Positions 10,367 to 50,200 of a DNA stretch of 64,000 nucleotides are shown here, one piece after another. Position numbers and translations under genes: made by a program. Location of the stretch: contig JAGVRJ010000008.1 in NCBI GenBank assembly GCA_019059635.1, positions 558,001 through 622,000 of the forward strand. Reading direction: 5' to 3'. The notes beneath the pieces were generated by a model. That model was not told the origin of the DNA. It worked only from the letters and a program-made list of their open reading frames with translations, and did not search any database. Source of the stretch: Proales similis. Lineage: Eukaryota > Rotifera > Eurotatoria > Ploima > Proalidae. Every line of letters begins with the position of its first letter. Position 1 is the stretch's first letter.

Positions 10367-11560
10367 ATGAAGAACACACTCATGAATATGAAGATGATCT
10401 TGGCTACCTTGGCCATACTACTGGCAGTTGAATCGATTGGTAAAGATAGCGCTCGACACATTTAACTTTGAATGCTTACTGAGTTCTCTTGAAAAACATT
10501 CGTAGAATCGAACAGTGTTCACAGGTTCGATGAGGCCCGTCAGAGGCACAATTCAAGCAAGATTGTCGGCGGCTCAGAAGCCACTGCGAACAGCTGGCCG
10601 GCCACAGCCATTATTTATAAAAACGACGCGTTCTCTTGTGGTGGAACTCTAATCAAAACCAACATGGTCTTGACTGCAGCTCATTGCACCGATGGAGTGA
10701 GCGCAAGCACTTTAAAAGTATACTTGGGCGTGCATGATAGAACTGACATCTCTTCGACAGATCCTCAAGTTTCGCCCATTGTAATGCGAACTGTGAGCCA
10801 AATTTACCAGGTAACCACTCTTCTCTTGAATTTCAAAACACAGAAACTGATTATTGAATAGCATCCTGACTACTCAAGTTCCACATATTACAATGACATT
10901 GCTCTCCTAGAACTTTCAAGTGATGTGACCCTGAGCGACGAGATTCAGCTCGCTTCGCTGCCGTCTGAATCTGAGACGTATCCGACTTCGAGTCAGAGCT
11001 CATGGGTTGTTGGATGGGGAGCAACGTCTGAGGGCGGCTCCTCATCCGATGTTCTGCTTCAAGTTGAAATGACCGTCTATGACTCAACTCAATGCAATCA
11101 AGTTTATCCGGCGATAGGAGTGAATGCTGTAATTGATTCAGCGCGACAGATCTGCTCGGGAGAAACGGCCGGCGGCAAAGACTCATGCCAAGGCGACTCA
11201 GGCGGCTCTTTGTATGTGAGTGACACTGTGAACGGCGCCACAACTTATGTGAGCGCGGGAATTGTCTCGTTTGGATACGGCTGTGCTCGCGCTGGCTATC
11301 CAGGGTGCGTTTTAAAATAAGCTTTGCATTTTTTTTTCTCTTTATTTATCCTATTCTTTAGACTTTACGCCAGAACCAGCTACTACATCAGCTGGATTAA
11401 TAACCCAAGTGAGTTAAGAAATGCATTTAACTTGCGTCTCAAGTTGATATTTAATTTTTTTCAAGCTTCTTCGCCTGCCGTGAGTTCGATGAAAATGGCA
11501 TCGATTTTTACTTTGATCGTTCCGATCGCTTTCTTGCTTTCTCTATTTGAAATTGACTGA
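10367..11560 (+). CDS. Trypsin-like serine protease 1 with hydrophobic C-terminal tail
   Basis: Secreted S1-family protease, 320 aa from five exons: 10367-10439, 10506-10810, 10862-11304, 11362-11408, 11466-11560 (963 nt, in frame). Exon 1 is a signal peptide. The zymogen site is K|IVGG. The triad is His in TAAHC, Asp in NDIAL and Ser in GDSGG. The residue six before the catalytic Ser is Asp (KDSCQGDSGG), so trypsin-like P1 Lys/Arg specificity is expected. The protease domain ends in a typical Tyr-Ile-Ser-Trp-Ile helix. A separate last exon adds small residues (SSPAVSS), a 17-residue hydrophobic stretch and the short end EID. This resembles a GPI-anchor signal, although a membrane anchor is also possible. 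A polyadenylation signal AATAAA lies at 11597-11602. It is the first member of a four-gene array in the same orientation. Confidence 0.93.
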
Positions 11561-12050
11561 AGCGAACATAATTCTATTAAAGCCTCATTTCATTTAAATA
11601 AAACGATTGTGAGAGACAAAAAGCAAACAATTTAAACTGGAGCGGTTAGAAATAGCGAACTAGACCACTAATTCTGGCGAGCTGACTCGACTCGAGTCGG
11701 TCCTGAAAGGTTTCTGTTTGATTTGGCGTCTGTGCTTTGTCCTTAAAATGAAGAGAAAAAAATTCTCGTTTTATGCCAGTTTACGTCAGAGCATTAGTCT
11801 TTGCCATTTTAAAATAATTGAAAAAACAAACCAATGCGTCTAAGTTATTTACATTTGAGCAGCATGAATTTTAAAAAATGTCTGGTTTCCATGGCAAGCA
11901 ATCGCGTTTCGTAACCTCGAACAAATGTCTGCGAGCGAAAAACTCTACAGAATTGAAACAAAAGTTCAAAAGAACAATTGTTTTAAGAGAGTGGCATGTC
12001 AAATAGCTGACATTTCATTTCTGCTTGGAGTTGAGAAATTCAAGAGAAAA
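11561..12050. other. Intergenic, protease 1 to protease 2
   Basis: Contains the poly(A) signal of protease 1 and presumably the promoter of protease 2. I see no gene and no strong TATA element. Confidence 0.5.
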
Positions 12051-13212
12051 ATGATAAGGCCGAGCGTTAGCTTTTTATTTTTAGGTTTCTTAGGCTTAAT
12101 AGGCGGAATGGCGACAAGTAGGTGGCAGTGAATTGACGCTCAATGCTTTTCTCAATCAATATTGGATTTAAAGGGCAAGTTCTAGGTGAAAAACTGGAGA
12201 CCAACGTGTCAAGAATAGTTGGCGGAACAGAAGCTGTCCCCAACTCTTGGCCCTCCATCGTTGTAGTCTACCATCAAGACTCGTTCGTTTGTGGTGCCAG
12301 TTTGATTGATAGCGAAACAGTTTTGACTGCTGCTCATTGTACTCATGGGTCTGTAGCTAGTGATTTCAAGATCTACTTCGGGGTGCACGATAGATCTGTA
12401 TTGAACGCCAGTGATCCCCAAGTTTCACCCGTCGTTATGCGAACTGTTTCTCAGATCATTGAGGTAATCCAATGCCTGTTCGGCTGATTGCCTGTCGCTC
12501 TCTGGCAAAGTCTGTTTGATTTTTGTTGCTCGATTTCAGCATGAGAACTACGACGATTCCACGTTGCGGAACGACATTGCTCTTTTTAAGCTGTCAAGCC
12601 CGGTGACTTTGAACAACTACATTCAAGTTTCCCTGTTCCCAGAGCAGTCCAACACTTATCCAACAAGTGGTGGCTATTCATACGTAGCTGGCTGGGGCGC
12701 CACTTCTTCTGGTGGCTCATCATCAACGGTTTTACTCCAAGTTCGCCTCAATGTCTATTCTGCTGCAACCTGTGCGTTGGTCGGCTACTCAATTGATGAT
12801 AGTCAAATCTGCTCGGGTTATTTGAGCGGAGGCAAGGACAGCTGCCAAGGTGACTCGGGCGGGCCTCTGTTCGTTTTGAACTCAGGCGGCACAACGTATA
12901 TAAACGTGGGAATCGTTTCTTACGGGCCTACGTGTGCAATGGTCGGAGGCACTGGGTAACAGAATATTAAGCAATCGTATTAAACTCTTGATTTATAAAC
13001 GCACTCATCAAGTGTCTACACCAGGAACAGCTACTTTATCAACTGGATGATCAGCAAAGGTAAACGAAATTCAGTTCCAACAAATGACTCATTTTAAGGC
13101 ACACTTTGTGTAAGGTGCTAAACCGACAACTGTGAGCAGTTCCTCAAAATCCCAAATATCGCATTTAGTCGCGTTCCTCTCATTGCTGACTCTGGCTTTC
13201 AGTTCAAACTAA
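12051..13212 (+). CDS. Trypsin-like serine protease 2 with hydrophobic C-terminal tail
   Basis: Secreted S1 protease, 301 aa from exons 12051-12117, 12186-12463, 12540-12955, 13013-13059 and 13115-13212 (906 nt, in frame). Signal peptide in exon 1; zymogen site R|IVGG; triad in TAAHC, NDIAL and GDSGG; Asp in KDSC predicts trypsin specificity. The catalytic part aligns closely with proteases 1 and 4 (shared runs such as YFGVHDR, QVSPVVMRTVSQI and LSGGKDSCQGDSGGPLFVLN), indicating recent tandem duplication. The last exon enters in phase 1 and encodes a Ser-rich linker followed by a hydrophobic end (VAFLSLLTLAFSSN). Like protease 1, this could be a GPI signal, although the two tails share no sequence. 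AATAAA at 13286-13291. Confidence 0.92.
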
Positions 13213-13369
13213 CATTGGGACGCTTTTTCTTAGCTTCACTTTATAGAAGTTCGCATCCATTTTTATTTGACTGGGACATTTTCAAAATAAATTCAAATAG
13301 CTGCTCAAACTTACTTTTGGCAGTTTCTGTTCGGCTAAATGAAGAACAGTTTTAAAACAAGAAAAATTT

Positions 13370-13534
13370 TAAAGCGAGTCGCCTCTCTTTCTATACTTGT
13401 TTTGTTCGACATACATACAACCTCTTTATGCTGCCAATTAGACGCGATGGAGCGGAACTCATTCTACGATTTAGCTATTTCTGGGTCTCCCTTTATAAGG
13501 TGCGTGTGCTGGTTCAACAGTCTATTCAGCCAAA
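13370..13534 (+). promoter_or_regulatory. Duplicated TATA promoter copy upstream of pseudogene
   Basis: This segment is nearly identical to 16010-16167 upstream of protease 5, from the AGACGCGATGGAGCGG block through a TATAAGG box (13494-13500) to the start codon. In both copies the TATA box lies about 35-40 bp before the ATG, so transcripts would have a very short leader. The copy was carried along with the first coding part of the gene. Confidence 0.7.
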
Positions 13535-13950
13535 ATGTTCAGTAGACAGTTTTATATTCTCGTTTGTGTGGCTCTCGTTTTGATCGGCTCTGGGCAAGCG
13601 CGCAAAGTTAGAAACTTGCGTGCGAAAAATGAGAAAATTAAAGGAGTCAGCCGAAATACCGAGAACGACTTGAAAATAGTGGGAGGCGAAGAAGCTGCGC
13701 CAAACAGCGATTCAGGTTGAGTTTTAAAATAAGCTTTGCATTTTCTTCTTCATTCATCCTTTTCAAAGAGTTGACTTGACAGCCAGTTACGAGATTGATA
13801 ACGGTGAGTTTAAGAACGAATTCAACTTGTGTTTTGAGTTAATTCTTTATTTTTTCAAGTTTATTATTCGCCTGCCGTGTGTTCGATGAAAATGGCGTCA
13901 ATTTTTAGTTTAACAGCCAATTATCTTTTTGCTTTCCTATTGAAATGACT
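13535..13950 (+). pseudogene. Chimeric, internally deleted protease pseudogene
   Basis: The 5' end (13535-about 13708) is nearly identical to the start of protease 5: same signal peptide, same propeptide, and the K|IVGG activation site followed by a few residues. The reading frame then breaks and stops at 13720. From about 13720 the sequence resembles the 3' end of protease 1 instead: the intron block GTTTTAAAATAAGCTTTGCA, remnants of the penultimate exon, and a degraded last exon with TCGCCTGCCGTG and GATGAAAATGG before a hydrophobic coding stretch. The whole catalytic domain (His, Asp, Ser) is missing. It is best read as the product of a deletion or unequal crossover between two array members. 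A short secreted peptide remains formally possible because promoter and signal peptide are intact. Confidence 0.8.
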
Positions 13951-14382
13951 TAAATTTTCCTATTGAGCAAAAATTAGTTTCTGACTACTTTGCTGGCGCT
14001 AGCTTTTTTTTTTTAAACTAAAATTTACTTTTTCCAAGTTTCTAGCATCTGGTTATGACTATTAATCGAAATTCGAACATAATAAACTTGACCGTTACCA
14101 ATAATCTTCAAAATTGCTTTGAGAAACCCATTAAGAAAATAACTAAATCGTAGGCAATTATAGGCCGAATAGCTAGATTTTAATAAACGGGGAGTTTTTT
14201 ACATTCCCAGACGCTTGATTGCATAAGCTGTCGTTTATCAATCTTTTGTCTACATTAGCGGCTCTAAAAGAAAATAAACAAAAAATCTACAAAAATTTAA
14301 AAGGCCTCATTTTGTTCATGTGAAAATTTCTGCAGATTGGAATTTCAAGATTTTTGAGCTTACACGATTAAACGGCTGAAGA
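13951..14382. other. Intergenic, pseudogene to protease 4
   Basis: AT-rich, no gene recognised. It presumably holds the promoter of the next protease. Confidence 0.5.
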
Positions 14383-15516
14383 ATGACTTTCTTGTTACTG
14401 TCAATATCGGTCTGGTTCACGGTTGCACAAATCGCAAGAATCAACTGTAAGTCGCTTTTGCTTTACTCGTTTCTGCTTAAGCAACTTAGCGTCGGTTAAA
14501 GGCGACAAGCTCGGCAATGGAAGCGCAAAAATAGTTGGCGGAACGGAAACAGCGCCCAACGCGTGGCCCTCTATTGTTGCTATCTACTATAAAAATCGGT
14601 TCACGTGCGGTGGCAGCTTGGTGGATAAATTCACGGTGGTCACTGCAGGTCATTGTGTCTACAATAGAACGGCGGCAGACTTCAAGCTGTTCTTTGGAGT
14701 TCACGATAGAGGCGTGTTGAGGGCTAAAGATCCCCAGGTTTCACCAGTTGTCATGCGATATGTACGAAGAATCGTTTTGGTAAGCCATGCAGCTCGGTCT
14801 TATTTTTAAACGCATTCTCCGAACCGCCAATAATCTAAAATTCTTTTGCAACTAGCACAGCGAATACGATGACAATTCTCTATTGAATGACATCGCTCTT
14901 TTCGTGTTGTCAAGTTCAGTTCGTTTCAACAACTACATTAGCAGGACAGTGTTTCCAGACCCAACTCAGACCTATCCAAGCAACGGGAGCACTTCGTTTG
15001 CAGTCGGATGGGGAACTACTTCTTACAATGGCTTTACATCGTCAGTATTGCTTCAAGTTGATCTCAAAGTCTATTCGTCTGACGTCTGCGCCAAAATCTA
15101 CGGCTACGATCTAACCGGAGGTCAAATCTGCTCGGGAGATTTGAGCGGAGGCAAGGACAGCTGCCAAGGTGACTCGGGCGGGCCTCTGTTCGTTTTGAAC
15201 TCAGACGGCACATCATACATCAATGTCGGAATAGTTTCTTACGGTCCTGAATGTGGATTAGTTGGCACAGCCGGGTATGAAAGTATTTAATATTTTGCAG
15301 ACTTTCAATTCAAACACTGTCATCCCAATTAAGTGTATACGCCAAAACCAGCTATTATATTAACTGGTTGAAAACAAAAGGTTTGGGATATTCAACTGGG
15401 ATTCGCAAAATCTTTCTTCCATTAAAAAACTCTCTTCATCAGGAGCCAATCCTTTGACTGCGCCTGTGATGCCCTCTTGGTCGTCTGGTGCTTGTTCGTC
15501 GCCTGTGAACAACTGA
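14383..15516 (+). CDS. Trypsin-like serine protease 4, short polar tail
   Basis: Secreted S1 protease, 297 aa from exons 14383-14446, 14490-14779, 14856-15274, 15334-15380 and 15443-15516 (894 nt, in frame). Intron 1 (14447-14489) is only 43 bp. Signal peptide, K|IVGG activation site, Asp in NDIAL, Ser in KDSCQGDSGG with the trypsin-type Asp. The active-site His sits in TAGHC rather than TAAHC, a conservative change. It is closest to protease 2 across exon 3. The phase-1 terminal exon encodes a Pro/Ser-rich 25-residue tail without a hydrophobic segment, so unlike proteases 1 and 2 this enzyme should be released rather than membrane-held. AATAAA at 15637-15642. Confidence 0.92.
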
Positions 15517-16009
15517 TTTGAAAAGAGGCGACTTAGATGCAATTTGGGGGATTAAAACCGAACTATGCTTAACTTGAGACCTTAGTACAACTTAGAGTTG
15601 TTTTAAAGAGTAGTTTGCGCTTTTTGAAATTAGACAAATAAAGCGCTAATTCTCGAAGCAAAATTTCAGTTGAGATTTGTCGCTTGCCTAATGCAACGCT
15701 TGAATTTGAGCAAAAAATTCGACTGAGTGTCTTGATTACTCATAGAGATGCTTTGGCGAACCCTTGAGAAGAAATTGGAAAAGTGAAATGGCGTCGTCTC
15801 TTGGCTTGAACGAACACTGACAGCGCGCGAGACGAATGCAAGGTGATCGATTACATAATGAAATGATTGAGGTTGCGAAAGCGTCTAGTCAAAAAGCTAG
15901 ATAGACTGAGACAGGAAAATAGATCTTGCGATTGGAAGGCATTTGAATGCACGAAATGACGAATGAGCTGCTTTTTCGTTCGAAGCAATCTGATAAACAA
16001 AAGCAGGTC
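15517..16009. other. Intergenic, protease 4 to protease 5
   Basis: Contains the poly(A) signal of protease 4. No gene is recognised; the right end grades into the duplicated promoter segment. Confidence 0.5.
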
Positions 16010-16167
16010 TGAGTCGCTTCTCTTTTTCTAGACTTGTTTTGTTCGTCATTCAACTTCTTGATTGCTCTAATTAGACGCGATGGAGCGGAACTCATTCTAC
16101 GATTTAGCTATTTCCGAGTCTCCCTTTATAAGGCGCGTGTGCTGGTTCAACAGTCTATTCAGCCAAA
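16010..16167 (+). promoter_or_regulatory. TATA promoter of protease 5
   Basis: TATAAGG at 16127-16133 sits about 35 bp upstream of the start codon. The block is conserved with the copy before the pseudogene at 13370-13534, which argues that these bases form the functional core promoter, or at least that the duplication was recent. Confidence 0.65.
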
Positions 16168-17469
16168 ATGTTCAGTAGACAGTTTTATATTCTCGTCTGT
16201 GTGGCTCTCGTTTTGATTGGCTCTGGGCAAGCGCGCAAAGTTAGAAACTTGCGTGCGAAAAATGAGAAAATTAAAGGAGTCAGCCGAAATACCGAAAACG
16301 ACTTGAAAATAGTGGGAGGCGAAGAAGCTGTGCCGAATAGCTGGCCGTCTTCTGCTCTCATTACTTATGCAAACCAGTTTACCTGTGGCGGATTCTTGGT
16401 CGATGAAAACACGCTGGTCACAGCAGCTCACTGTGTTGAAGGCAGGATAGCAGGGCTCTTCAAGGTCTATCTCGGCGTTCACAATAAAAGTCAGATTTCG
16501 CCAAGCGGTCCGCAATTCGGGCCCATTCTAATGCGAACTGTTTCTCAGATCATTATGGTAAGCTTGCAATTTCATTCTCTCTTTCATTCGGCCATTTGCT
16601 TAAACTGAACGCAAGCATGAGGATTACAATACGGCCACATATGCTAATGATTTTGCCATTCTGCGATTTTCAACACCGGTCACATTTACTGCTGCCATCC
16701 AGCCCGCCCGATTGCCCGATCAGTCGGAAGAGTATCCACTGGCAGGCCTAAAATCCACTGCCGTCGGATGGGGCTCAACATCCTTTGGTGGTCCCACCTC
16801 TTCAGTCTTGCTTCAAGTGGACTTGAATATTTATCCGATGATTGTCTGCGAGTCAGTCTATGGCCCATTGGATGCGTCAAGTCAAGTATGCGCCGGCGAG
16901 CTGGCAGGAGGAAAAGACACTTGCTCTGGCGATTCAGGCGGACCACTATATGTTCGCGAGGTTGTAAATGGTTCGGCTGTCTATGTTGTCGCTGGCCTAA
17001 CATCAAGCGGTTTTGAGTGCGCCCGACCTGGTTATGCTGCGTAAGATAGCCAAACTAGACAACTTTCAACTCATTGAATTTAAAGAATTTTAATTGCGTA
17101 GGATCTACACAAGAATGTCAAGGTTTATCGAATGGCTCAATCAAAATCGTAAGACAAGCTGATTGAACGCTAGCCACGCACATTGCTTTTATCGGAATGT
17201 TCAACATTTTCTAAGGAAATTCCGAAGAGACAACTACCATCACGACCAAAATCACATCCGTAAGCACCAATTCGACCACCCCAAGCGCCAATCAAACTAG
17301 CAATTCGACCACAACCACCACCAATCCAACCACCAAAAGCACCAATCCAACCACCACGACCAACGGCGTGCAGTTTACACTTCCTCAAATCGATCAGGAT
17401 TTTGCTGAGACAATCAACAACTTCATAAGCGCCATAGGCTCATTCTTTTCGGGACTTTTTTCCGGCTGA
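16168..17469 (+). CDS. Trypsin-like serine protease 5 with Thr-rich mucin-like stalk
   Basis: Secreted S1 protease, 371 aa from exons 16168-16557, 16616-17040, 17102-17148 and 17216-17469 (1116 nt, in frame). It lacks the intron that separates signal peptide from protease domain in the other array members. It has a signal peptide, a basic propeptide, K|IVGG, His in TAAHC, Asp in NDFAI and Ser in GDSGG, with Asp in KDTCSGDSGG giving trypsin specificity. The phase-1 last exon encodes about 50 residues dominated by Thr, Ser, Asn and Pro (STNSTT and TTTTTNPTT type runs), likely O-glycosylated. It ends in an amphipathic or hydrophobic segment with FISAIGSFFSGLFSG at the terminus. AATAAA at 17577-17582. 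Confidence 0.92.
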
Positions 17470-30187: not shown

Positions 30188-33100
30188 TCATAAGCTTGTT
30201 GTTTCTGGCTTGTGATAATAGCAAAGCAGATTGGCGGAAACTTTCTTGTTCCCTGGAGACTTGTCCATCCTCCATCTCACCGTACCGTTCGTGGAATCTT
30301 TAACCAGAAGGCCGTTATTTTGTGTATCTGTGTCTCCTGAAATAAAATTAAATGGACGACGAAAAAGGTCAGTATTAGCTAGAGATCACTCACGGCTGTT
30401 TTCTATGATCCATTCGTGGAAGAAGGAAACGCTCATGAATACCCTTAAGAAGGCGGAATTCATTTCCTAGTTAAAGAGAAAAAAGCTGAAAAAGCCTCAC
30501 GCCGGCGATCCTGGTTGTCCACATCTCATTCCAAACGCAGTTATTCCCGCGAGTGCGTCCTCATTCTCATATTTAGCGATAAGTCCGCCGCCGGAATCGC
30601 CGTTGCATACGCCCTTACGCTGCGACGGAGAGCCAGCACACAAGTACTGGCTGCTATTGAAATCAATAGAGCGATAAGTTTGTCGACAACTAGTGTCCGA
30701 AAAGACCGTGAGGTTCACATGCTGAAGAATCTCCGGAATAACATTATTTTGGGTGAGGCCCCAGCCGTAAGCTTGAACTGCTGAATTTGCCGGGGGCCAA
30801 TTGATGTTTGCAGGAACAATACGAATAGGGGATATCTTGTCAGAGAGAGGAACCTCCTTTTCCAAAAATAAAAGAGCCACATCATCAGTGAATCGGCTTG
30901 GGTTGTACACAGGATGCTAAGGCGAATAGTCTAAAGAATTAAATAAAAACCAAAAATAAATCTTACCGGTTTGATATTAACAACGCGTAAGTAAAAGGGT
31001 CCTGAAGGGCTGGTCGGATCCATGAGATTATTTGTACCGAGAAGAATGGAGAATAATGTAGAGTTCAAACCAAAAACACAGTGAGCGGCGGACAAAACAA
31101 CGTTTTTACGAATAAGGGAGCCGGTACAAATAAAAGAATTGTTATAAAACAAAGCGGCGTTATGAGGAGCCTTCTGGATATCAATATCTTCTCCGCCAAA
31201 AATTAAAGTTCGAATAGCTGAAGAAACTATTTCGTTATCAACTAAAAAGGCGAAATAAAAATTAAAGCTTTAAAAGAAAGAGAAACATGACAAAACCTTT
31301 CATTGGCTGTGTAGAGTTGACTTGAATGTAAGATACAGGGACGTTTGTCTAAAAAAAATAAATAAAGAAAGAAATAAGACATATTAAATAAAAAAACAAA
31401 CCACGAGAAGATTTTCAGATGAAATAAAAGGATCAACGCTTTGCATATGGTCCGCAAGAATTTCGAAATCATTTTGGGTAAAAGAACTATTGGAATAAAC
31501 AACTTTAATCTCACGTTCACATGCGAGTGCGGCTAAATCAAGAGTATTTTCTTGGCCTTGATATCGGGCACAAAGTTGCCCATAACAGTATCCGAGACCA
31601 TCCCGAGTAAATTTGGGTTGTGCAACAGCGGTCGAATTCTCTAAAACAGATAGTTCAGTGGAAGCGGAAACTTTTTCGGTAGAGGTCGCTATATCTGTAA
31701 ATGCCTGCTCGGTGGTGGCTGGAGCGTCCTCGTTAGCATTGCCGACCTCAACTACAGCCTGTTCGGTAGTGGCTTGAACGTCCTCTATGGCTATTGAGGC
31801 TTCAACTACAGCCTGCTCGGTAGTGGCTGGAACGTCTTCGTTGGAAATGGCTGATTCAACTACAGCCTGCTCGGTAGTGGCTGGAACGTCCTCTATGGCT
31901 ATTGAGGCTTCAACTACAGCCTGCTCGGTAGTGGCTGGAACGTCTTCGTTGGAAATGGCTGATTCAACTACAGCCTGCTCGGTAGTGGCTTGAACGTCCT
32001 CTATGGCTATTGAGGCTTCAACTACAGCCTGCTCGGTAGTGGCTGGAACGTCCTCGTTGGCTATTGAAGCTTCAATTGAGGCCTGCTCGGTAGTGGCTGG
32101 AGCGTCTTCGTTGGAAATGGCTGATTCAACTACAGCCTGCTCGGTAGTGGCTTGAACGTCCTCTATGGCTATTGAGGCTTCAACTACAGCCTGCTCGGTA
32201 GTGGCTGGAACGTCCTCGTTGGCTATTGAAGCTTCAATTGAGGCCTGCTCGGTAGTGGCTGGAGCGTCTTCGTTGGAAATGGCTGATTCAACTACAGCCT
32301 GCTCGGTAGTGGCTGGAGCGTCCTCGTTGGCAATTGCTGATTCAACAACAGCCTGCTCGGTAGTGGCTGGAACGTCCTCGTTGGCTATTGAGGCTTCAAT
32401 TGAGGCCTGCTCGGTAGTGGCTGGAGCGTCTTCGTTGGAAATGGCTGATTCAACAACAGCCTGCTCGGTAGTGGCTGGAACGTCCTCGTTGGAAATGGCT
32501 GATTCAACTACAGCCTGCTCGGTAGTGGCTGGAGCGTCTTCGTTGGAAATGGCTGATTCAACTACAGCCTGCTCGGTAGTGGCTGGAACGTCCTCGTTGG
32601 CTATTGAAGCTTCAATTGAGGCCTGCTCGGTAGTGGCTGGAGCGTCTTCGTTGGTAATGGCTGATTCAACTACAGCCTGCTCGGTAGTGGCTGGAACGTC
32701 CTCGTTGGCTATTGAGGCTTCAATTGAGGCCTGCTCGGTAGTGGCTGGAACGTCCTCGTTGGCTATTGAAGCTTCAATTGAGGCCTGCTCGGTAGTGGCT
32801 TGAACGTCCTCGTTGACAAAAGCTGATTCAACTACAGCCTGCTCGGTAGTGGCTGGAGCGTCCTCGTTGGCAATTGCTGATTCAACAACAGCCTGCTCGG
32901 TAGTGGCTGGAACGTCCTCGTTGGCTATTGAGGCTTCAATTGAGGCCTGCTCGGTAGTGGCTGGAGCGTCTTCGTTGGAAATGGCTGATTCAACTACAGC
33001 CTGCTCGGTAGTGGCTGGAACGTCCTCGTTGGCTATTGAAGCTTCAATTGAGGCCTGCTCGGTAGTGGCTGGAGCGTCTTCGTTGGTAATGGCTGATTCA

Positions 33101-36100
33101 ACTACAGCCTGCTCGGTAGTGGCTGGAACGTCCTCGTTGGCTATTGAAGCTTCAATTGAGGCCTGCTCGGTAGTGGCTGGAGCGTCTTCGTTGGAAATGG
33201 CTGATTCAACTACAGCCTGCTCGGTAGTGGCTGGAGCGTCCTCGTTGGCAATTGCTGATTCAACAACAGCCTGCTCGGTAGTGGCTTGAGCGTCTTCGTT
33301 GGTAATGGCTGATTCAACTACAGCCTGCTCGGTAGTGGCTGGAACGTCCTCGTTGGCTATTGAGGCTTCAATTGAGGCCTGCTCGGTAGTGGCTGGAACG
33401 TCCTCGTTGGCTATTGAAGCTTCAATTGAGGCCTGCTCGGTAGTGGCTGGAGCGTCTTCGTTGGAAATGGCTGATTCAACTACAGCCTGCTCGGTAGTGG
33501 CTGGAGCGTCCTCGTTGGCAATTGCTGATTCAACAACAGCCTGCTCGGTAGTGGCTTGAGCGTCTTCGTTGGTAATGGCTGATTCAACTACAGCCTGCTC
33601 GGTAGTGGCTGGAACGTCCTCGTTGGCTATTGAGGCTTCAATTGAGGCCTGCTCGGTAGTGGCTGGAACGTCCTCGTTGGCTATTGAAGCTTCAATTGAG
33701 GCCTGCTCGGTAGTGGCTGGAGCGTCTTCGTTGGAAATGGCTGATTCAACTACAGCCTGCTCGGTAGTGGCTGGAGCGTCTTCGTTGGAAATGGCTGATT
33801 CAACAACAGCCTGCTCGGTAGTGGCTGGAACGTCCTCGTTGGCTATTGAAGCTTCAATTGAGGCCTGCTCGGTTGTGGCTGGAGCGTCTTCGTTGGCAAT
33901 GGCTGATTCAACTACAGCCTGCTCGGTAGTGGCTTGAGCGTCTTCGTTGGCAATGGCTGATTCAACTACAGCCTGCTCGGTAGTGGCTGGAGCGTCCTCG
34001 TTGGCAATTGCTGATTCAACTACAGCCTGCTCGGTAGTGGCTTGAGCGTCTTCGTTGGCAATTGTTGATTCAACTACCGCCTGCTCGGTAGTGGCTGGAG
34101 CGTCCTCGTTGGCAATGGCTGATTCAACTACAGCCTGCTCGGTAGTGGCTTGAGCGTCTTCGTTGGCAATGGCTGATTCAACTACAGCCTGCTCGGTAGT
34201 GGCTTGAGCGTCCTCGTTGGCAATGGCTGATTCAACTACAGCCTGCTCGGTAGTGGCTGGAGCGTCCTCGTTGGCAATGGCTGATTCAACTACAGCCTGC
34301 TCGGTAGTGGCTGGAGCGTCCTCGTTGGCAATTGCTGATTCAACTACAGCCTGCTCGGTAGTGGCTGGAGCGTCCTCGTTGGCAATTGCTGATTCAACTA
34401 CAGCCTGCTCGGTAGTGGCTGGAGCGTCCTCGTTGGCAATTGCTGATTCAACTACCGCCTGCTCGGTAGTGGCTGGAGCGTCCTCGTTGGCAATGGCTGA
34501 TTCAACTACAGCCTGCTCGGTAGTGGCTTGAGCGTCTTCGTTGGCAATGGCTGATTCAACTACAGCCTGCTCGGTAGTGGCTGGAGCGTCCTCGTTGGCA
34601 ATTGCTGATTCAACTACAGCCTGCTCGGTAGTGGCTTGAGCGTCTTCGTTGGCAATTGCTGATTCAACTACCGCCTGCTCGGTAGTGGCTGGAGCGTCCT
34701 CGTTGGCAATGGCTGATTCAACTACAGCCTGCTCGGTAGTGGCTTGAGCGTCTTCGTTGGCAATGGCTGATTCAACTACAGCCTGCTCGGTAGTGGCTGG
34801 AGCGTCCTCGTTGGCAATGGCTGATTCAACTACAGCCTGCTCGGTAGTGGCTGGAGCGTCCTCGTTAGCAATTGCTGATTCAACTACACCCTGCTCGGTA
34901 GTGGCTGGAGCGTCCTCGTTGGCAATTGCTGATTCAACTACAGCCTGCTCGGTAGTGGCTTGAGCGTCTTCGTTGGAAATGGCTGATTCAACTACAGCCT
35001 GCTCGGTAGTGGCTGGAACGTCTTCGTTGGAAATGGCTGATTCAACTACAGCCTGCTCGGTAGTGGCTGGAGCGTCCTTGTTAGCAATACCGAACTCGAC
35101 CGTTGGCTGTTCTGTTGTGGCTGGAATAACTTCGCTGGCTAATGCTGTTCTTACCACGTCAGGTCGGTTACTAATTTCAACATGATTTTCAACATCATTG
35201 GTTTTTTCCGGAATGCCTATTAAATTATCTGTCATTTCTGAAGATGGAGTCAAACCGGGCTGATTTTCTGTCGCCGCTATTTGGCTTATCGCCGAAGCTC
35301 TTATTTGTTCTGAGAAAGATTCGTTGGGTACGAGTCTTGTTTCTTTAATCGATGCGAATTGATTTAATTTTTTTTATAGATATTTCTATTGGAATTTCTT
35401 GTTTTCTTTCTTACCTTTGTTTTTTCCCAGGATCTCTCTCAAAAGCCCCATTTCTATTGGTAATTGATTTTTTTCGATCTTGCATATGGTTAAGAATTTT
35501 TCCTTTTTGTTTGCATTATACGTTCTAGTTCTTCTTTGTATATCTGTTCTCTTCAACACCGACGCATCATCTAACTTTATCCGCCCACACGATTTTATTT
35601 AGATATTTTTACTTCTTATCATTTGTTCATACGCCTACCCATATGTTGTTGCGGCATGTATTACTGAGTATTGTTGACAATATGTATTTTACATCATTGT
35701 CTTCTGCATCATCCTGGTTTATTAAAGATCCTTGAGGGTATTTTTGGCATAAGGCATTAGCCTGATAGTAGTTTGATAGCTTGTGTAACGCGATATAGCA
35801 GAAATCGTCTATACACCAGGCCCTATTTTGCTCTTGATATTTTTTAGATTATAATTTCAAATTTTTCCTTTTTTTTTCTTACCACACATTTCGTTGCAAA
35901 AGCTTTCGTCCTCCTTACAACTTTTCGGCAAAATTTTGCATTTGATTGTTGGAGTTTGACTTTTATTAGGGTTTGCTTACTTGCATATTCCATCATCGCA
36001 TATAAGCCCAGTTCCATTTCTGCAGCCGTGTATTGGTGAGCACGACTCTCGGTATGTCGGCTTGATTACTATTTTCCAAATTTTTTACTTTTCAGAAACC

Positions 36101-36377
36101 TTGTTTAATCAAGATCACTTACCGCACTTGGAGCCGTCATGATACATATTGTGATCGCATCTTCACGTTGTTGTTTTTTTATTTTTGAATTTTCAATTTG
36201 CTCCGAAATCAGTTCAACCTACAGGCATTTGTCTTGAATGCAAATTGTTCGAGTGGCCGGGTCGCACGATAAATCCCTTAAGCAGTATTCGCCATATTTG
36301 GCCTTTAGTTGTCCATTCGACATCAACGGAAACGCGAATAGAACGCAAAGAAGCGGAATTATTGAGCTCGACTGCAT
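30188..36377 (-). CDS. Secreted mosaic protein: EB-like, C-type lectin, 18-aa repeats, serine protease
   Basis: Twelve exons: 36223-36377, 36123-36160, 35981-36068, 35883-35920, 35639-35832, 35415-35574, 31402-35342, 31297-31348, 30967-31241, 30501-30916, 30394-30443, 30188-30336. They total 5556 nt, exactly 1852 codons, and all joins keep frame. Residues 1-22 form a signal peptide. About 30-105 are Cys-rich EB/EGF-like modules. About 107-225 form a degenerate C-type-lectin-like domain (CYIALHK through TICKIE, five Cys, no EPN or WND calcium motif). About 250-1500 are 18-residue repeats. The rest is an S1 protease: activation site L|IFGG, His in SAAHC, Asp in DDVAL, Ser in GDSGG. The specificity position six before the Ser is Gly (KGVCNGDSGG), so elastase- or chymotrypsin-like rather than tryptic cleavage is expected. 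A 46-residue polar tail follows. The first coding exon is short and easily missed; starting inside the repeat exon would remove the signal peptide. Confidence 0.88.
31696..35131 (-). repeat. 54-bp coding minisatellite, about 63 copies
   Basis: Tandem 54-bp units inside one exon encode the 18-residue unit ATTEQAVVESAIANEDAP and variants (ASIEASIANEDV, AVVEASIAIEDV). Copy number is estimated from length. All units stay in frame. Each has three Glu, one Asp and no Lys, Arg or Cys, so the array is strongly anionic, roughly four negative charges per unit. Units at the protein N-terminal side are more uniform, while those towards the protease are mixed types. A higher-order block of five units (270 bp) is repeated at 33299-33559 and 33569-33829. 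Confidence 0.97.
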
Positions 36378-36756: not shown

Positions 36757-37977
36757 TCATGTCCTAGAACAGCTGAGCGCGTTTCTAAGTTGTGACCTGA
36801 ACTTCTTTCCCGAGGCACAATAAACAAAAAAGTGAATGCCGTAGTTGAGAATATAGAATATCTCGCAGATGTTGAGCACAGAGAAGAGATTGAACGAGTC
36901 TTTGACGCTCAGATCGTTGCCAAATGCGCTCAAATAGAAGAAAACGCACCAGGAGACGACGTAGGGCAAATTTAAAAACGCGTACGAAAAGGAAAGGAAC
37001 AAGAGCATTCGCGTGATCTTGTACGATTCGTTCGTACTCTTTTTGCGAACGCTAGCTGAACACACTGGTGCGGATCGCTTCACTAGTGATTGATTCGCGG
37101 TCCGCTTGCTTTTTAGACTCAATGTTGTTTTCAACAGTGCGTCTGCATGGTCGTTTTGCTCGCTGGTCGCAGATAAGTTCTGACGCGCTCGACTCGCCTT
37201 CCAAATGTGAACGATAATCAGCAAGTTGAATATGAATATCAAGATGATGGGTAAAAGCATGGTGATCACCACGTAGACAATCGTGGCGTGAAAGTAGATT
37301 GAAGAGAACTGGCGTTCAACATCACAGTACTCGTCCAGAATGACACTGCCAGCGGGCGTTGGTCGCAGCCGAAACAGAAATGGCACCCAGGCAGTGAATA
37401 TGCACCCTGAGAGGGTGAGAATCAAAATGATTGTCCACGCAAGTTTGTTCGATTCTAGTTTGGCTTGTGAGAACGGCCATTTGATAGCGATGGCGCGTTG
37501 TATGGTGAACGTCACTATTATGTAGGCGGAGACGAATCGAAGTAGATAGCGGAAATAGTTGACGGTACGGCAGAACATGTTCGACTGGTCTATGATGCTT
37601 ATGGTTCGCAGAGTGGCTCTCACCCATTCATTCATGTTCTTTTTAGCCAAATCGGCTTCGACCAAATAGTGGCACTCGTCGCGTAGATTGGCATAGGCGC
37701 CGTTGCTAAATGCGTCAATATAGCTTCGGGTGGTGTCCTCGAAGAAATGCATCAGCAAGAACAGTCCGTCCGATAGTGCCAAGCACAACAAGTATATGCT
37801 CGACGAATGAATGCGGAATCGCTTCTGAATGAACACAAACAAAGCCAACGCGTTACCCAGCAGACCGATTGATATTATGGCAGTTGTGGCGTACACGTTG
37901 ATCAGTTTTGTGCGGCTGAGCAGCTCCATAGAATGTATTTCCTGCCAACAGCTGGCTTCTCTTTCGCTCTCGTTCAT
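36757..37977 (-). CDS. Rhodopsin-family G-protein-coupled receptor, orphan
   Basis: Intronless 406-aa receptor with seven hydrophobic segments. TM1 carries GLLGNALALFVF with the conserved Asn. TM2 carries LALSDGLFLL with the conserved Asp. TM6 and TM7 end in FYILNYGIHFFVYC, a variant of NPxxY typical of invertebrate neuropeptide-type receptors, followed by SGKKFRSQL (helix 8). The first extracellular loop is unusually long, about 50 residues between TM2 and TM3. At the cytoplasmic end of TM3 the usual DRY/ERY reads IQRAIAIKWP, so the acidic residue is replaced by Gln while Arg is kept. The third intracellular loop is long, basic and Ser-rich. Peptide-receptor-like is the best description; the ligand cannot be predicted. 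TTTATT at 36721-36726 is a reverse-strand poly(A) signal. Confidence 0.88.
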   Translation of the reverse strand: MNESEREASCWQEIHSMELLSRTKLINVYATTAIISIGLLGNALALFVFIQKRFRIHSSSIYLLCLALSDGLFLLMHFFEDTTRSYIDAFSNGAYANLRDECHYLVEADLAKKNMNEWVRATLRTISIIDQSNMFCRTVNYFRYLLRFVSAYIIVTFTIQRAIAIKWPFSQAKLESNKLAWTIILILTLSGCIFTAWVPFLFRLRPTPAGSVILDEYCDVERQFSSIYFHATIVYVVITMLLPIILIFIFNLLIIVHIWKASRARQNLSATSEQNDHADALLKTTLSLKSKRTANQSLVKRSAPVCSASVRKKSTNESYKITRMLLFLSFSYAFLNLPYVVSWCVFFYLSAFGNDLSVKDSFNLFSVLNICEIFYILNYGIHFFVYCASGKKFRSQLRNALSCSRT

Positions 37978-39433
37978 TTTCCTGGTTTCTTTTTTATTGA
38001 CCGGCGCCGCTTTTGAACTCTAAATCAAAGATGAAATTTCATCGGTTTGGTTTCAACCTTAAATATTGCATCAATCTTTTAATATCGCACTCTACCCATC
38101 CTCTCGATTTTTAAGAGTCTGGTTAGATAGAAGAAGACGGAGCATAGCTAGTCTACGAATCCAACAATTAAATAATTAAATAAATTCCAAGAATATTTTG
38201 GCGCATCGAAAGCGTTCACATGGCACAACCATGTAATTGACGCTTGGCACCATTTTCTTACGTCAACGTCTTGATCCCTATGGGCAAGGAATATGATGGT
38301 ATTGATTATCTTAGAATTAGAATTTCCTAATGTGGATTAGGCCGTCTGCCGTTATGCTGTTGTAATTTGATCAGCTTTTATGCCACATCGAATGAGAAGC
38401 GAGCTAGTCGTCTCCGTCTTTTTGAAAATTTCAAGGTCATACATAGATTGTTGCAATAGATAATTGCAAGCAATTTTCTGCATTGCCAAACAAAACCTGA
38501 ATATCAATAGAATATCAAGCGTGACTTGCTTATTCTCAATAATTGCCAAATGTTAGATGAATTTTACGGTTCAAAACGAGCCGGTTGTATTTTGTTCGAG
38601 ATAAGGCACTTCTTCAAGGCACAGAGATAATGAGCGCCGCTCGGAGCCTTATTCGCTTTGGGAGCACTCTAAAGCTTTTTTTTTGCGCCTAAGTGGAACA
38701 GTTGGTATTCGCGAAATCGACGAGCAGACTCTTTGAGCTCATAAAGAGAAAAATGCAACACTTGAGAAGAGACCCAGTGTGAGAAATAGAGAGCGAAAGA
38801 GAAAATAAAAAAAGGCAGAGAAAGAGAGAGAAAAGAAAAGAAATAAGGATAACTTAGAGAAGGAGAAATACCAGAGAAGTGAAGGCCTGAGTTACTCTGT
38901 TGGTTTTCAGAATGATGATGGCAACTTTTAAGCGAGATAATTAACTCATTAAATGGTCGGCCGAGTACTGCAGGGAGAGAAGCGCGTTAATTTAATGCCT
39001 TCTTGCGCTGCGAATGATTTTCTCTTCCTGTAGCCAGACTCAAAGAGGCAAACTGCATCAATAGAACATTGAATATTAGCATAAGGCTCCACAAATTAAT
39101 TTGCTTGAAACAAGGCAGATTTAGCCAAGCGCGAACTTGATCACAAATTTAACGGCTTTGTGTGGTTTTTCCCGTTATATGTTCCGAATGAGGGCTTTTG
39201 ATGAGCTTTTGAAGCAAACGAGCTCGACTAGCCTGTCTTTTGTCGAAGCCAGACACGCTCTCGTCTCCAGACATTTTGCAAGTGCTCACCTCTTAGTAGC
39301 ACTCCTCCAAACCTCTTCTTAACCTCAAAGTCAAAACTACTTTGTCTACTCCGCTATTCTGCAGCTCAATGAGAAAAGGAAGCTAATTTATGACAGCAGA
39401 GCGTACATGAATTGAGCGATTAGTGCGCGAATT
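37978..39433. other. Intergenic, GPCR to C-type lectin gene
   Basis: About 1.45 kb of divergent promoter space between two genes reading away from each other. AT-rich around 38160-38600 and purine-rich (GAGA, AAAGAG) around 38740-38880. No gene recognised. Confidence 0.5.
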
Positions 39434-44287: not shown

Positions 44288-47200
44288 ATGGTGTTTGAAA
44301 GCGTTGTTGCTTATTTTCTCGACAAATATCTCAGCAGCTATGTTGAGAATTTCGACAGCTCCAAGCTCAAAATCGGAATATGGAACGGTCAGTTGCCCCG
44401 GTCTGCCAGCTCTGATTCGTCCGATTTCTAATTCTGATGATTTAAAAAGGCGACGTCGTCTTGGAAAATCTTTACTTGAAAACAAGCGCGTTGGTAATTC
44501 GAATTGAACTGTCCCGTTTTGATTACATTCACAAGCTGCTCGAAATTAGGACGAGCTCAATCTGCCGGTCAAAGTGGTCACCGGCCATCTGAGTAAGACT
44601 CTTCCTGTCTCTGCGTAGAAGCTGCTTAAAGACAGCCTTTGGTTAAGAAACTCTTCGCCTCAAAATTCCTTGGAAGTCGCTGTACACGCAGAGTGTGAAA
44701 GCTTCGGTCGAAGGCCTCACAGTTTTGCTTGCTCCCGAATCACGCGTGAAAACCGACGGTGAACGAGAACGACTCGAGAGCATTGAGAAAAAGCTCAATG
44801 AGGTGAAAAGGCTGCTCGAATCCAAATCGAGCGAAGGTAACTAAGACCAATAAGTCAAAAGGACTTGAAGAGCTTTTCAGGATCTTGTTCTAAACGAAGC
44901 GAGCGAAAGCAATGCCAGTGCCGACAAGAATGACACGTTCACCGAGCGACTGCAACTTCAGATTGCTCGCAATCTGGAGCTTCAAATTAGAGACATTCAC
45001 GTTCGCTACGAGGACGATGTCACCAAGCCAGAGCATCCGTTCGCGTCCGGCTTCTACTTGGAGTCGATTGAAGTGAAGACCACGGACGAGAATTGGAATG
45101 TGACTTATCTTAAGGAAGAGACCGAGTTTGTCAACAAATTGGCCTTGCTCAACTCGTTCTGCATCTACTCGAACTCGGAGGAGGAACTCACCTACAACCA
45201 GGATCGTAAAACCATAATGAGAAAAATGACCGATCGCTCAGAGATTCACAAGAGGGCCAGTTACATTCTGCGGCCATTAAGCCTGACGGCCAAGAGCGTT
45301 CTTAACATGAAGCCGAAGCAAAACAACTTCAAGAATCCAATGCTCGATGTAACCATAGCCCTTGAGTCAATTGCCCTCGGTCTCAACCGACTTCAAGTAA
45401 GCTGAAACAAATCAGTTAGTTTGGATGCTTGGGCTCACTTTTCTATTCGTTCAAGTATTTCGATTTAACCGATACGCTGAATGCAATCGATCACATGAAA
45501 TTGAAGGCCAAATATCGCAAGTTTCATCCAAACACCAAGTTCCAACCGGCTGCTTGGTAAAGAAAACATTTAACAAACGGACTCGGATTCAGTTTTAAGC
45601 CTGTTTTTGGGGGGCCGATAAAGGTGGAAATTTGCTTACCAAAGCATCTGCGAGACTCAAATACGCCCAAGACGAGAACAGTACAAGTGGGAGCGCATCA
45701 AACTGGTCACCAGAACGAGACGCGAGTATTTTGAACTGCTGAAGAAAAAGCTGAGCAACGCCAAACTGAGCGAGCCAGAGCTCGAGCGCGAAAAGGTTTG
45801 AATAATTTGCCAATTTATTGCCGATTGCGTCGATTGAGCTATTTGGATAAGAAATGCGTTGAACTGCTCGACGTGTTCAATTTGGTGCTTGCAAGACGTC
45901 AGGCTGAAATGGAAGTGGCCAGAGCAAGTGAGAAGAAAGCGCAGCAGAGCTGGTGGTCGTGGATGACCTCGTCGGCAGCCACCGCCAACGAGGATAAGGA
46001 AAAAATCAACGAAGCGTTGAAACTGTCACAGAACGAAAAGATCAAATTGTACGACGCGATCGGCTACTCTGATGACCAGAGCTTTGCCAAATACCCGTCC
46101 GATTATGTCAACATCAAACTCAGCTTCGTTCTCGGCACATTTCAACTCGCTCTGTTCGACGGCGAGTACAAGGATTCTGACCGGTGAGTGCTCTCCTGCT
46201 TGGAAAAGTCCACAAGAACTGTAATCGGGACCTTTAAAGGGCTGCGTACATCGCGGAGAGGGATCTTCTTCGTCTCGAACTCGAAGAGCTCAAGTTGAAC
46301 TTCAGCCAGCGGCCAGTTCAGAGTGGAATATCACTCGACTCGAGCGTAAAGAGGATGGCTTTGATCGGCTCTTCGTGGGACGCTTATGACCACAAGTTGC
46401 CGTCGAGTGAGCTAATCATGGAAAAAGCGCCCGTTCTAATCGAGCCAGTAGAGAGTCAAAGCGAGCTGGCCAAGTTCTCGTTTGAACTCAATCCGGTCGA
46501 TAACAAGTGCACTCGGCGAATTCGCTTTGAGTCCAAGTCGCTTAAAATTGCCTACGACGCATGCACCATAAACAACTGTGTCTACTTCTTCCGAACGAGC
46601 ACATCCCAGAAGAGACTCAAGAGCGCCGCTCTGAAAACAATTGCGCAGGCAAGAGAGCGCTCTCTGTTGTATATGAAAAACAAGCTGCAGAACATCGAGC
46701 GCATCGATCTGAGCATTGACATTCAGCCGTCGTTCTTGATCGTTGCCGAGGGAGGCTGCTTGAAGGACGATCAACGTCTGCTGTGCCTCAACTTCGGCCA
46801 CTTGTCGATCAAGTCCGAGGAGACGCCCTCAAGCGGACCAGACCCGGCCGAGTTTACTGGCGATTTGTCCGATGCGCGTATCATTGACGCCTCTTATCAC
46901 AAGTACAAGATTTCATTGAGCAACATTAAAATTCAACTGCTGTCTGACAAGAGCCAGTTGGACACACAGCAAGCAGACTCTTACATTCTGACTCCGCTCG
47001 ATCTGTTCATTGACATTCACCAATGCGTTTATTTGGATGAACTGCGACTACCCGCTTGGAAGGTGCTTGGCAATCTGCCATTGATTGAGTTGGCATTGAC
47101 CGACGTTAAAGCTGAAAGTTTACTCAAACTCGTTCTGAGCATTCCCTTTCCAAAGTCGGCCTTGAGCGACAACGAGCATGGAGCCAGTTATTTAGAACTG

Positions 47201-50200
47201 CTGGATGACGAGTCTGCCGACAGCACAGGTGTGGCCAATGATCCAATTCAGCAGCTCAATGAGATGGTTACAGACAACGATGAGCAATTTGTCACCGCCT
47301 GCGATTCGCTCGATCAACTCGAGAAGCTGAATCGTCGATCGAAGTATCTGCCGGCCGAAAATTTGCAGCAAGCAGTTACACTCGAGTTCGCGTTCGAAAT
47401 ATTCAAGGTCACAATTAAACTGCGCGAGAACGAGGCAAAGTATTTTGATTTCATTTCGTTTGACATTCACTCATTGGGCATGATTGGACAAATCAAGTCC
47501 TACGATACTCAGCTTCAGTTTTATTTGCGACGAATCGCTTGCCAGTATGGTCTGCTCAACGATGTCGGCGGCTCGCCCCTCTACCTTATCGAGTCGGCCG
47601 CATCCGACAAAAAAGGCGACCAGAGTCTAATCAACCTAGAGCTTGTTCAAACCGACCTGATGAGCCCGACGTTGTCGCTTGTCCACCAAAATGTGCTCAC
47701 CTCAGTGGCTCTTCAAATGAAGTCGCTGCATTTCACGGTGAACATGGTGGCGCTAAGAAATCTACTGCAGTTCGCCGAGTCATTTCAGTTTCGTCTTCAG
47801 ACATCGTCCAATTTAGACGAGTACAAGAGCGAGCTCGAGTCCTTGATAAATCAGACTTTGGAGAGCAAGAGCGGCTCGACTGTTCCTCTGCATAAAAGCG
47901 AGCAAATAAAAGCTTTGGTCGCTCGCCCTGGATCTCTCGCTGCCGAGTTGGACTCGGGTCCGACTGCGTACAAGGTGACTGCGAGTATGGAAGGCGTTCA
48001 GGTGCGCATCTGCACCAGCTATCAGAATTACTTTCAAGCAAGCGTGAACCAGCTGCGAGCAAGCGCGTGGGGAAAATGCTCGTCAACCGAAGTGGAGCTC
48101 TCACTCGACTCGATAAGTGTTGAGGATTTGAGCTATAACACTCTGTGCCAGCACATACTCACTCTGGACAAAGATCAGCAAGATCTGGTCAAAGTCAAAA
48201 TTCGCCTGAACCATGCGCCGAAAGGCGACTCGGCGCTCGCTTCTCGCTATCTCTTCGAGAAGCATCACTTCAGACATTATCTGGACGAGAACTACTCTGA
48301 CATGGACGTGCAGGCGGTTGTTTCAAAATTGAAGCTCACATTCATGTTCTCGCATTTGAACTCGTTCCTTGACTTGATGAGGCTGCTCGAGAGTAGCAGC
48401 GAGTCGTACGTCGCGTCCAAAAAAACAGAGAGCAAAGCCATAGCAGCTGGCAAACTCGAAACAGGCAGAGGCCATGAAGAGGCCACTGGTGACACCCAAG
48501 ACGAGCAGGGATTCAAATTTATCTACAGAATGAAACTGGATGTTACTATTAACGCGCCGGTGATTGTCTTGCCGCAAACAGCAGTTTCACAGGCGCTTCT
48601 CATAGACTGCGGTTTGATCAAAGTGAAAAGCCAAAACGAAATCAATAGAGACTATTTCAATCAATCTAGCAGTGAAGTGAAACTGGTCCAGGAATGTGGT
48701 CTAGTTCCTGTCATTGAGGCTATGAGTATCAGTCTGATCGACACCCACGTGTCCAGATTTAGACTGGAAGCGGCCGAGAAGAGTCTAAGCTTGGTCGAGT
48801 TTGCTGACCTTGACATTGAAATTAAACGAAACCTCAATCCTCAGCCATACTCCGACATTGTTCCGATTTGTGTGGATGCCAAATATGGCGGTCTGACAGT
48901 GAACCTGTCAAAAGGCGATTTCGCATTCCTAATGCGATTTTCCCAAAGTTTGAACGATAAAACCGAATTCGCCGATCCGGACTTGGCGTTCGTCTCGCAG
49001 CAGACCAATCAAAGGGTGACCAAACGAAAGAAGAAGACAAGCAAAATAAATGAATATTACAACAAGCAGTCGTTGCGCGAGTTCAAAGGCTTTTTGGACC
49101 TGAAAAGCTCGAGCTCAACCGAGGTGCCCAACATAAACATCAACTTTGCTCTAAAAACAATCGCTATTCGTCTTTATGATCAAGACGCAAAACATTTCGA
49201 TGGACAGCAATTGACTGTGGGAGACGTAGCTCGGTCTGACGGTCACTTGTTCTCAACAATGGCCTTGAACAATTTGAAATTCGAACTGAACATGTTCGAG
49301 GAGAGCGAGAATGAAAGAGACTCGTTGAGAGTCTTACTCATGCTCGACGATATTGAGCTCAATGACACAAGAAAAGTGCAGAACCGAGGACAAGCCACTA
49401 AGCTGGTGCAAAGATATAAAATGAAAAATGCCGTACCGAAGCCGATGCTGTTCGCGTTGGCTGAGAGTAAATCAGTTCGCCAGGAACAACATGCAAGCCA
49501 GGAACTGTTCAGAAATGAGAGGCGAGTGAACGCTTCTCTAAACTGCTTGAGAATGTGTGTGAACGTTGACTACTTGCTGTTGCTGTCTGACTTTTTCGTG
49601 TCCGGACTGCCGAGCAGCCAATCAAGCGATGTGAGCCTCAGCGATGCGTCGAGCGAAACGGACAGCATGAATCTGAGCGAAGCGTCGTTCAGTCAGAGCT
49701 CGATTCCCACTGAGCTTATCGTGGACGTTAAAATTGAAAATCCCCAATTCATTCTGTTCGAGGATCAGTTCGATTTGAAGAGTTCAAACGCGTTGATTGT
49801 AGACGGCTCAATATTACTGAGACTTAACGCGGAGGACAAGCTCACCAAAACATACGTGACCTTGAACGATCTAATGGTCAAGCTCAGGCAAGGCAAGTTG
49901 AAAAAATTTGAAAAAGGACGCAAGTATCACGTTCTCTCGCCCACCGGCATGACTCTGACCGGCATAATCGACGAGCGAGATCAAAATTCTAAAAATCAGT
50001 CATTCACAATCGACCTAAGAGAGATAAACTTGAATTTGTGCCCGTTGATGCTCAACACGTCAATTCACATGATGAACTCGATACAAAAATCGATCAGCGA
50101 GGCGTTTAAGAGCGAGTCTGAATCGATCGAGATGGAGCCTGGCGTTAAGCTCGACGCCTTGTTTGAGCCGGTCGCATTCAAAAAGTCGGAATTCTGGTTC

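Follow-up and report, generated by a model that had tools for sequence, protein, structure and literature searches.

The window, by which we mean the whole 64,000-nucleotide stretch of Proales similis DNA analysed here, carries a 12-exon gene on its minus strand (36377-30188) that joins a cysteine-rich head with a C-type-lectin-like (CTLD-like) domain, a long acidic repeat array and an S1 protease. A gene model rebuilt from the window sequence confirms, with small corrections, what a preliminary description of this DNA had observed, and it is very probable that the entire architecture is encoded as one gene. Judged from sequence, this is probably a functional mosaic protease gene belonging to a small family in the genome. 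Its best explanation, to which we give a probability of roughly 0.55, is a secreted modular serine-protease zymogen of this same-genome family that would be anchored and equipped with a polyanionic stalk.

Gene structure and module order

The preliminary description had claimed one 12-exon gene with GT-AG introns throughout, and the rebuilt model agrees: all 11 introns are GT-AG and 50-72 nt in size, and all 12 exons are open in the called frame except for the terminal stop. The coding sequence of 5562 nt (1853 amino acids plus TGA) gives a protein with a computed molecular weight of 195 kDa and a pI of 4.05. The total given earlier was 5556 nt; the 6-nt gap would fit the alternative donor of intron 5, where two GT donors lie 6 nt apart (GTAGGC/GTATGA, used here, vs TGG/GTAGGC) and the choice alters two residues. 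The module order reported before (signal peptide, EB or other Cys modules, CTLD-like domain, acidic repeats and S1 protease) is reproduced, and the complete order is signal peptide, EB1, EB2, CTLD-like domain, a 93-residue spacer, 64 repeats, linker, S1 domain and a 49-residue C-terminal extension. The features are as follows.

36312..36377, minus strand: predicted signal peptide, residues 1-22 (exon 1; hydrophobicity)
36124..36305, minus strand: EB-like module 1, residues 25-64 (exons 1-2, with a phase-2 intron inside; Pfam EB)
35884..36123, minus strand: EB-like module 2, residues 65-106 (end of exon 2 and exons 3-4, with a phase-2 intron inside)
35473..35883, minus strand: degenerate CTLD-like domain, residues 107-207 (exons 4-6; phmmer, hhalign)
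31666..35121, minus strand: 64 tandem 18-residue acidic repeats, residues 301-1452 (exon 7; ATTEQ anchor, TRF)
31204..31665, minus strand: linker with three Cys, residues 1453-1570 (end of exon 7, exon 8 at 31348-31297, start of exon 9)
30395..31203, minus strand: S1 (chymotrypsin-family) protease, residues 1571-1804 (exons 9-11; Pfam, PDB matches)
30188..30394, minus strand: C-terminal extension, residues 1805-1853 plus stop (last base of exon 11 and exon 12; resembles the extension of the C1 paralogue described below)

Codon scores from a small training set range from -8.2 to +4.3 for exons 1-6 in the called frame, and exons 2, 3 and 12 each score marginally better in a different frame. Codon scores are therefore no proof of the short exons, although exon 9, which surely encodes protease, also scores -9.2 with this training set.

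The head

The most hydrophobic 15-mer of the mosaic protein starts at residue 5 (KD 2.41) and no 15-mer past residue 31 exceeds 1.8, while the repeat-protease part without exons 1-6 contains no signal-peptide-like stretch. The Pfam EB model (PF01683) scores 17.4 bits on the head (cut-off 24.3). The exon layout of EB-like module 1 recurs in the C2 and C1 paralogues, and residues 65-94 share 53% identity with C2:3330452-3330541. We uphold the head despite its weak EB and codon scores because unlinked paralogues repeat its exon lengths and phases.

A phmmer comparison of the CTLD-like domain with solved structures gave 24 matches at E ≤ 10; 22 of them bear C-type-lectin-like names (best E = 5e-4). 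With hhalign, the domain matched a profile of five same-genome CTLDs at E = 3.5e-4, with a probability of only 37% and over the first half only; none of 200 shuffles equalled this score. Pfam Lectin_C has no match at E ≤ 1 in the head, and a structure model of exon 5 (pLDDT 68.8), a weak test because it covers half a domain, had no PDB match at E ≤ 0.001, and its 26 matches at E ≤ 10 included no CTLD. In sugar-binding C-type lectins, a long loop bears the Ca/sugar motifs (EPN/QPD, WND) and an inner Cys pair. Just 23 residues separate WVGLDD from FLTICK in the mosaic domain, without an EPN/QPD or WND motif, so the long loop is absent. The earlier proposal that the lectin-like head tethers the protein to glycans is unsupported, given that this loop with its motifs and the inner Cys pair is missing, and a protein-binding role would be more likely than sugar binding. 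Elsewhere in the genome, C1:321000-330999 (L053) contains a run of CTLD matches and an FN2-like stretch, which we read as mannose-receptor-like.

The acidic repeat array

The preliminary description had counted about 63 acidic 18-residue repeats; the array and its unit size stand, and the ATTEQ anchor corrects the count to 64 units, spaced exactly 18 residues apart and comprising 26 distinct DNA units. TRF reports 3.4 kb with an 89% match. Core units are near-identical with worn copies at either end, and higher-order periods of 108 and 162 bp are present. All 31 matches listed in a whole-genome search with the repeat fall in the mosaic array.

There are no in-frame stops in the array compared with 65 in each of the other forward frames, and pN/pS is 0.43 in the coding frame as against 1.79 and 0.94 for these two frames and 1.59, 0.81 and 0.69 for the antisense ones. 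This pattern shows coding constraint on the predicted repeats, which bears on their sequence and not thereby on their length. Several antisense open frames lie over the repeats (window 31586-35185, plus strand); we take them to be by-products of the repeat because antisense pN/pS is 0.69-1.59.

The array makes up 1152 residues (62% of the mosaic protein) with a net charge of -252. It contains two Lys and no Arg, Cys, Tyr or Trp; Thr, Ser and Pro contribute 11.9, 7.9 and 4.3% (together ∼24%), and two Thr open every unit. The polyanionic character claimed earlier for the stalk is thus borne out by its acidity and charge, while the accompanying mucin idea is a guess only, the Thr/Ser/Pro content being moderate.

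Linker, protease and C-terminal extension

The S1 protease named in the preliminary description is present, with a Pfam Trypsin match at E = 4.4e-43, a best PDB match to enteropeptidase (E = 1.8e-33) and an intact triad (AAHC, DDVALL and GDSGGG, which includes GDSGG). Membership of the predicted domain in peptidase family S1A is beyond doubt. Six Cys fit the pairs 42-58, 168-182 and 191-220 in our numbering and pairing. Our reading of the alignment places Gly at the 189-equivalent position, replacing the trypsin-type Asp189, together with Gly216 and Ala226, and on these residues the preference would be chymotrypsin- or elastase-like. Among the 22 other S1 rows of the genome, 14 have Asp at position 189, seven have another residue and one has none. 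Zymogen cleavage is predicted at Leu1570/Ile1571 (TL/IFGG), which would give a mature start, IFGG, that is IVGG-like. The single Cys of the C-terminal extension and the three of the linker could tie the propeptide to the catalytic part.

The linker finds only itself in the genome at E ≤ 1, and its structure model is of low confidence (pLDDT 54.7). A second lectin-like domain in the linker was considered and rejected, as 134 of 200 shuffles scored at or above its score against the CTLD profile. Kinship of the linker with the lectin-like regions of C1, C8, C2 and the mosaic's own head is likewise rejected (85, 206, 183 and 790 per 1000 shuffles reach the respective scores), the value of 85 for the C1 mid region being not significant.

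Paralogues in the same genome

A search of the genome (32.7 Mb in 15 contigs) identified the following relatives.

C2:3330122-3331088: head gene in which a signal peptide precedes two EB modules and one more domain, then a stop; no repeats or protease
C1:3080902-3082975 (L085): mosaic gene with signal peptide, EB1, EB2, a region without clear relatives, acidic linker, S1 and C-terminal extension; no repeats
C8:911.4-915.0 kb (L084): two tandem EB-module genes with signal peptide and EB-like modules (∼2 and 4 by eye)

Exons 2-4 of the C2 gene measure 38/88/38 nt with phases 2/1/2 and the next exon has phase 1, exactly as in the window gene; Pfam EB scores 24.1 bits (cut-off 24.3). The C2 tail was rejected as a CTLD relative (score 11.3, below the best of 100 shuffles, 21.8) and also as a relative of the CTLD-like domain of the mosaic head (512 of 1000 shuffles reach the score).

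The C1 gene shares exons 2-3 of 38/88 nt with the window gene. Before an in-frame TAG inside its S1 domain, a single reading contains both EB (43.4 bits) and Trypsin (49.5 bits), each above the Pfam cut-off, and Trypsin scores 49.8 bits downstream of the TAG. Given this TAG, the C1 gene may be dead (a pseudogene) or misread, or the TAG may be allelic. Its S1 introns have phases 0/2/1, matching introns 9-11 of the window gene, and the penultimate exon is 50 nt in both (exon 11 in the window gene). No shuffle in 1000 reaches the score between the rear halves of the two S1 domains, or that between the two C-terminal extensions (39, highest shuffle 37; a short match). The C1 region between EB2 and S1 has no significant similarity to the CTLD-like domain of the mosaic head (191 of 1000 shuffles reach the score), and 37 of 100 shuffles reach its score against the CTLD profile. 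The C1 protease retains Asp at position 189, where the window mosaic has Gly. C1 joins its EB modules to S1 within a single reading, so this union is not unique to the window. It is thus unlikely that head and protease are separate genes there, and the mosaic looks like a member of a small protease family more than like an artefact of gene prediction.

The first exons of the two C8 genes are nearly identical, which suggests a recent duplication. The second gene ends in a stop without protease, and among the at least 34 genome-wide S1 matches listed none lies at C8:911-915 kb. In the C8:911 kb gene, a short stretch reaches a score against the CTLD profile that none of 100 shuffles attains, and 185 of 1000 shuffles reach its score against the mosaic head.

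Neighbouring genes and kinship of the protease

S1 relatives of the mosaic protease exons lie in the same window.

10562..17041, plus strand: four tandem trypsin genes (match extents)

A further trypsin gene copy lies just outside the window at C8:555 kb (L056). The S1 introns also match those of trypsin paralogues: the one before the HP residues in all six genes examined (five by script, one by eye; L060 left out), and the following one in all seven. The introns of the mosaic S1 and the window trypsin genes are equal in position and phase. Capture of the S1 domain from this adjacent cluster by local fusion would agree with these introns, but we rejected it, as a rough query-anchored tree puts the mosaic outside the cluster. 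In that tree the mosaic S1 joins two other proteases, L064 and L065 (0.935), not C1.

Two other genes of the window were noted. One open frame of 2943 codons (46238-55069, plus strand) appears VPS13-like to us; the adjacent mosaic and trypsin genes carry small introns. A single-frame gene that we read as GPCR-like (36757-38019, minus strand) immediately precedes the mosaic gene in the same orientation.

Proposed mechanism and alternative explanations

The history of the mosaic may have begun when a head gene joined an S1 gene and the fused gene was then duplicated; the window copy would have acquired the 18-residue repeat, which unequal crossing-over would have enlarged. A single fusion followed by duplication is weakened because the S1 tree does not pair the mosaic with C1; the Asp that C1 has at position 189 and the lack of demonstrable kinship between the middle regions of the two genes also speak against so simple a history. 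For the protein, we tentatively propose an anchored-zymogen mechanism, with odds somewhat below even: (i) the head would attach to matrix or to a partner protein, sugars being unlikely ligands; (ii) the highly charged array would keep the protease at a distance from its anchor and would be hard for trypsins to cut because it offers no Arg and two Lys; and (iii) cleavage at the predicted site would activate a chymotrypsin/elastase-type protease that acts close to the anchor. O-glycosylation, protease activity and the activation site are predictions from the encoded protein, and the roles in immunity, feeding or mucus remodelling suggested in the preliminary description would be speculative.

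The locus could instead give two products, i.e. a short secreted head from exons 1-6 that terminates inside intron 6, plus a repeat-protease made via another promoter or trans-splicing. C2 is a complete stand-alone head gene, the C8 EB-module genes have no protease that was found, and read-through of exon 6 meets a stop ∼10 codons inside intron 6. Nevertheless, the 72-nt intron 6 leads into exon 7 with the frame kept, a protease made separately would have no signal peptide unless some exon not yet seen provided it, and C1 holds EB and S1 within one reading; we regard two products as very improbable. It is also unlikely, if less so, that the mosaic is chiefly an acidic structural or mucus/matrix protein in which the function lies with the repeats and the protease does no more than trim the protein itself or its neighbours. 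The share and charge of the repeats, the two Thr opening each unit and the occurrence of the head without protease in C2 would all suit such a protein, but the mosaic retains the triad and six Cys fitting three S1 pairs, the C1 sister keeps its protease yet has no repeats, and Thr, Ser and Pro form only about a quarter of the array.

The array might, alternatively, be a neutral minisatellite tolerated in the linker, whose length has no function and may vary among individuals or be mis-assembled. Near-identical core units, worn ends, the higher-order periods and the short linker of C1 are all consistent with this. However, the coding frame has the lowest pN/pS of all six (0.43 vs 0.69-1.79), although this constrains sequence and not length, and 64 units have been kept without frameshift or stop; we consider neutrality improbable. 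The anchored, stalked zymogen is our preferred reading.

Modular serine proteases act at the start of cascades in immunity, clotting and development. It is conceivable, though doubtful, that the mosaic represents a lineage-specific class of anchored initiator proteases with an EB-EB plus lectin-like head and S1, one member of which would bear a giant protease-resistant polyanionic tether that sets its reach. If C1 is alive, it and the window gene form a natural pair without and with the long tether, and together with the stand-alone head gene this pair would make the contribution of each part directly testable. The family also illustrates module shuffling between unlinked loci in which exon lengths and intron phases are kept.

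Comparison with known systems

The preliminary description knew of no family with this module order, and none emerged outside the genome in our limited protein and literature searches. The protein searches required shared exact words and had length limits. Within them, the mosaic head had no match at E ≤ 1 among 229 candidates, S1 plus extension had 33 matches among 877 candidates, and linker-S1-extension had 17 among 5390; all of the latter two sets belong to the Trypsin family and none has EB or Lectin_C in its listed Pfam annotation. In the literature searched (titles and starts of abstracts, with few subscription journals covered), we found neither the module order nor an EB module paired with a C-type lectin domain.

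Limulus factor C unites recognition modules, a CTLD and S1 in one secreted zymogen and carries LCCL and Sushi modules. Factor C resembles the mosaic in combining S1 with further modules in one protein; in Pfam searches of the mosaic's head and tail, however, neither LCCL nor Sushi matched at E ≤ 1. PMC4461313 mentions factor C among composite immune proteases.

The closest known system is that of the mosquito CLSP1-3 proteins (CTLD-SP class), which, according to the available parts of PMC6070988 and PMC4461313, are secreted fusions of an elastase-like S1 protease and a C-type lectin domain. In Aedes aegypti, as these parts report, CLSP2 is cleaved upon fungal challenge, its freed lectin part binds the fungus and the protein modulates melanization (PMC6070988, PMC4461313). 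The mosaic likewise combines an S1 domain, in one protein predicted to be secreted, with a domain that is CTLD-like. However, as far as these descriptions extend, CLSPs have an N-terminal protease and a C-terminal lectin, an order that is reversed in the mosaic; their lectin retains a QPD or EPN motif that the mosaic domain lacks; and no EB modules or repeats are mentioned for them (PMC6070988, PMC4461313).

Insect proteases of the Sp22D/Tequila type, as outlined in the available part of PMC1761132, resemble the mosaic in having several Cys-rich modules, repeat stretches and one S1. By contrast, the modules of Tequila are chitin-binding, SRCR and LDLrA instead of EB and CTLD-like, and that part describes no 18-residue acidic array for Sp22D/Tequila. 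The same bee survey, in that part, records serine proteases or homologues bearing a C-type lectin domain (PMC1761132).

Within the genome itself, two EB-CTLD proteins (C4:1.770 Mb, L031; C13:1.0436 Mb, L013) are like the mosaic in that EB-like modules are followed by a CTLD or CTLD-like end, but they differ in having a single open frame, several EB modules and no protease. The EPN motif is present in the former and seemingly absent in the latter, and in both we noted a membrane-anchor-like stretch near the N-terminus. As predicted from its gene, the mosaic is a new variant among modular S1 proteases.
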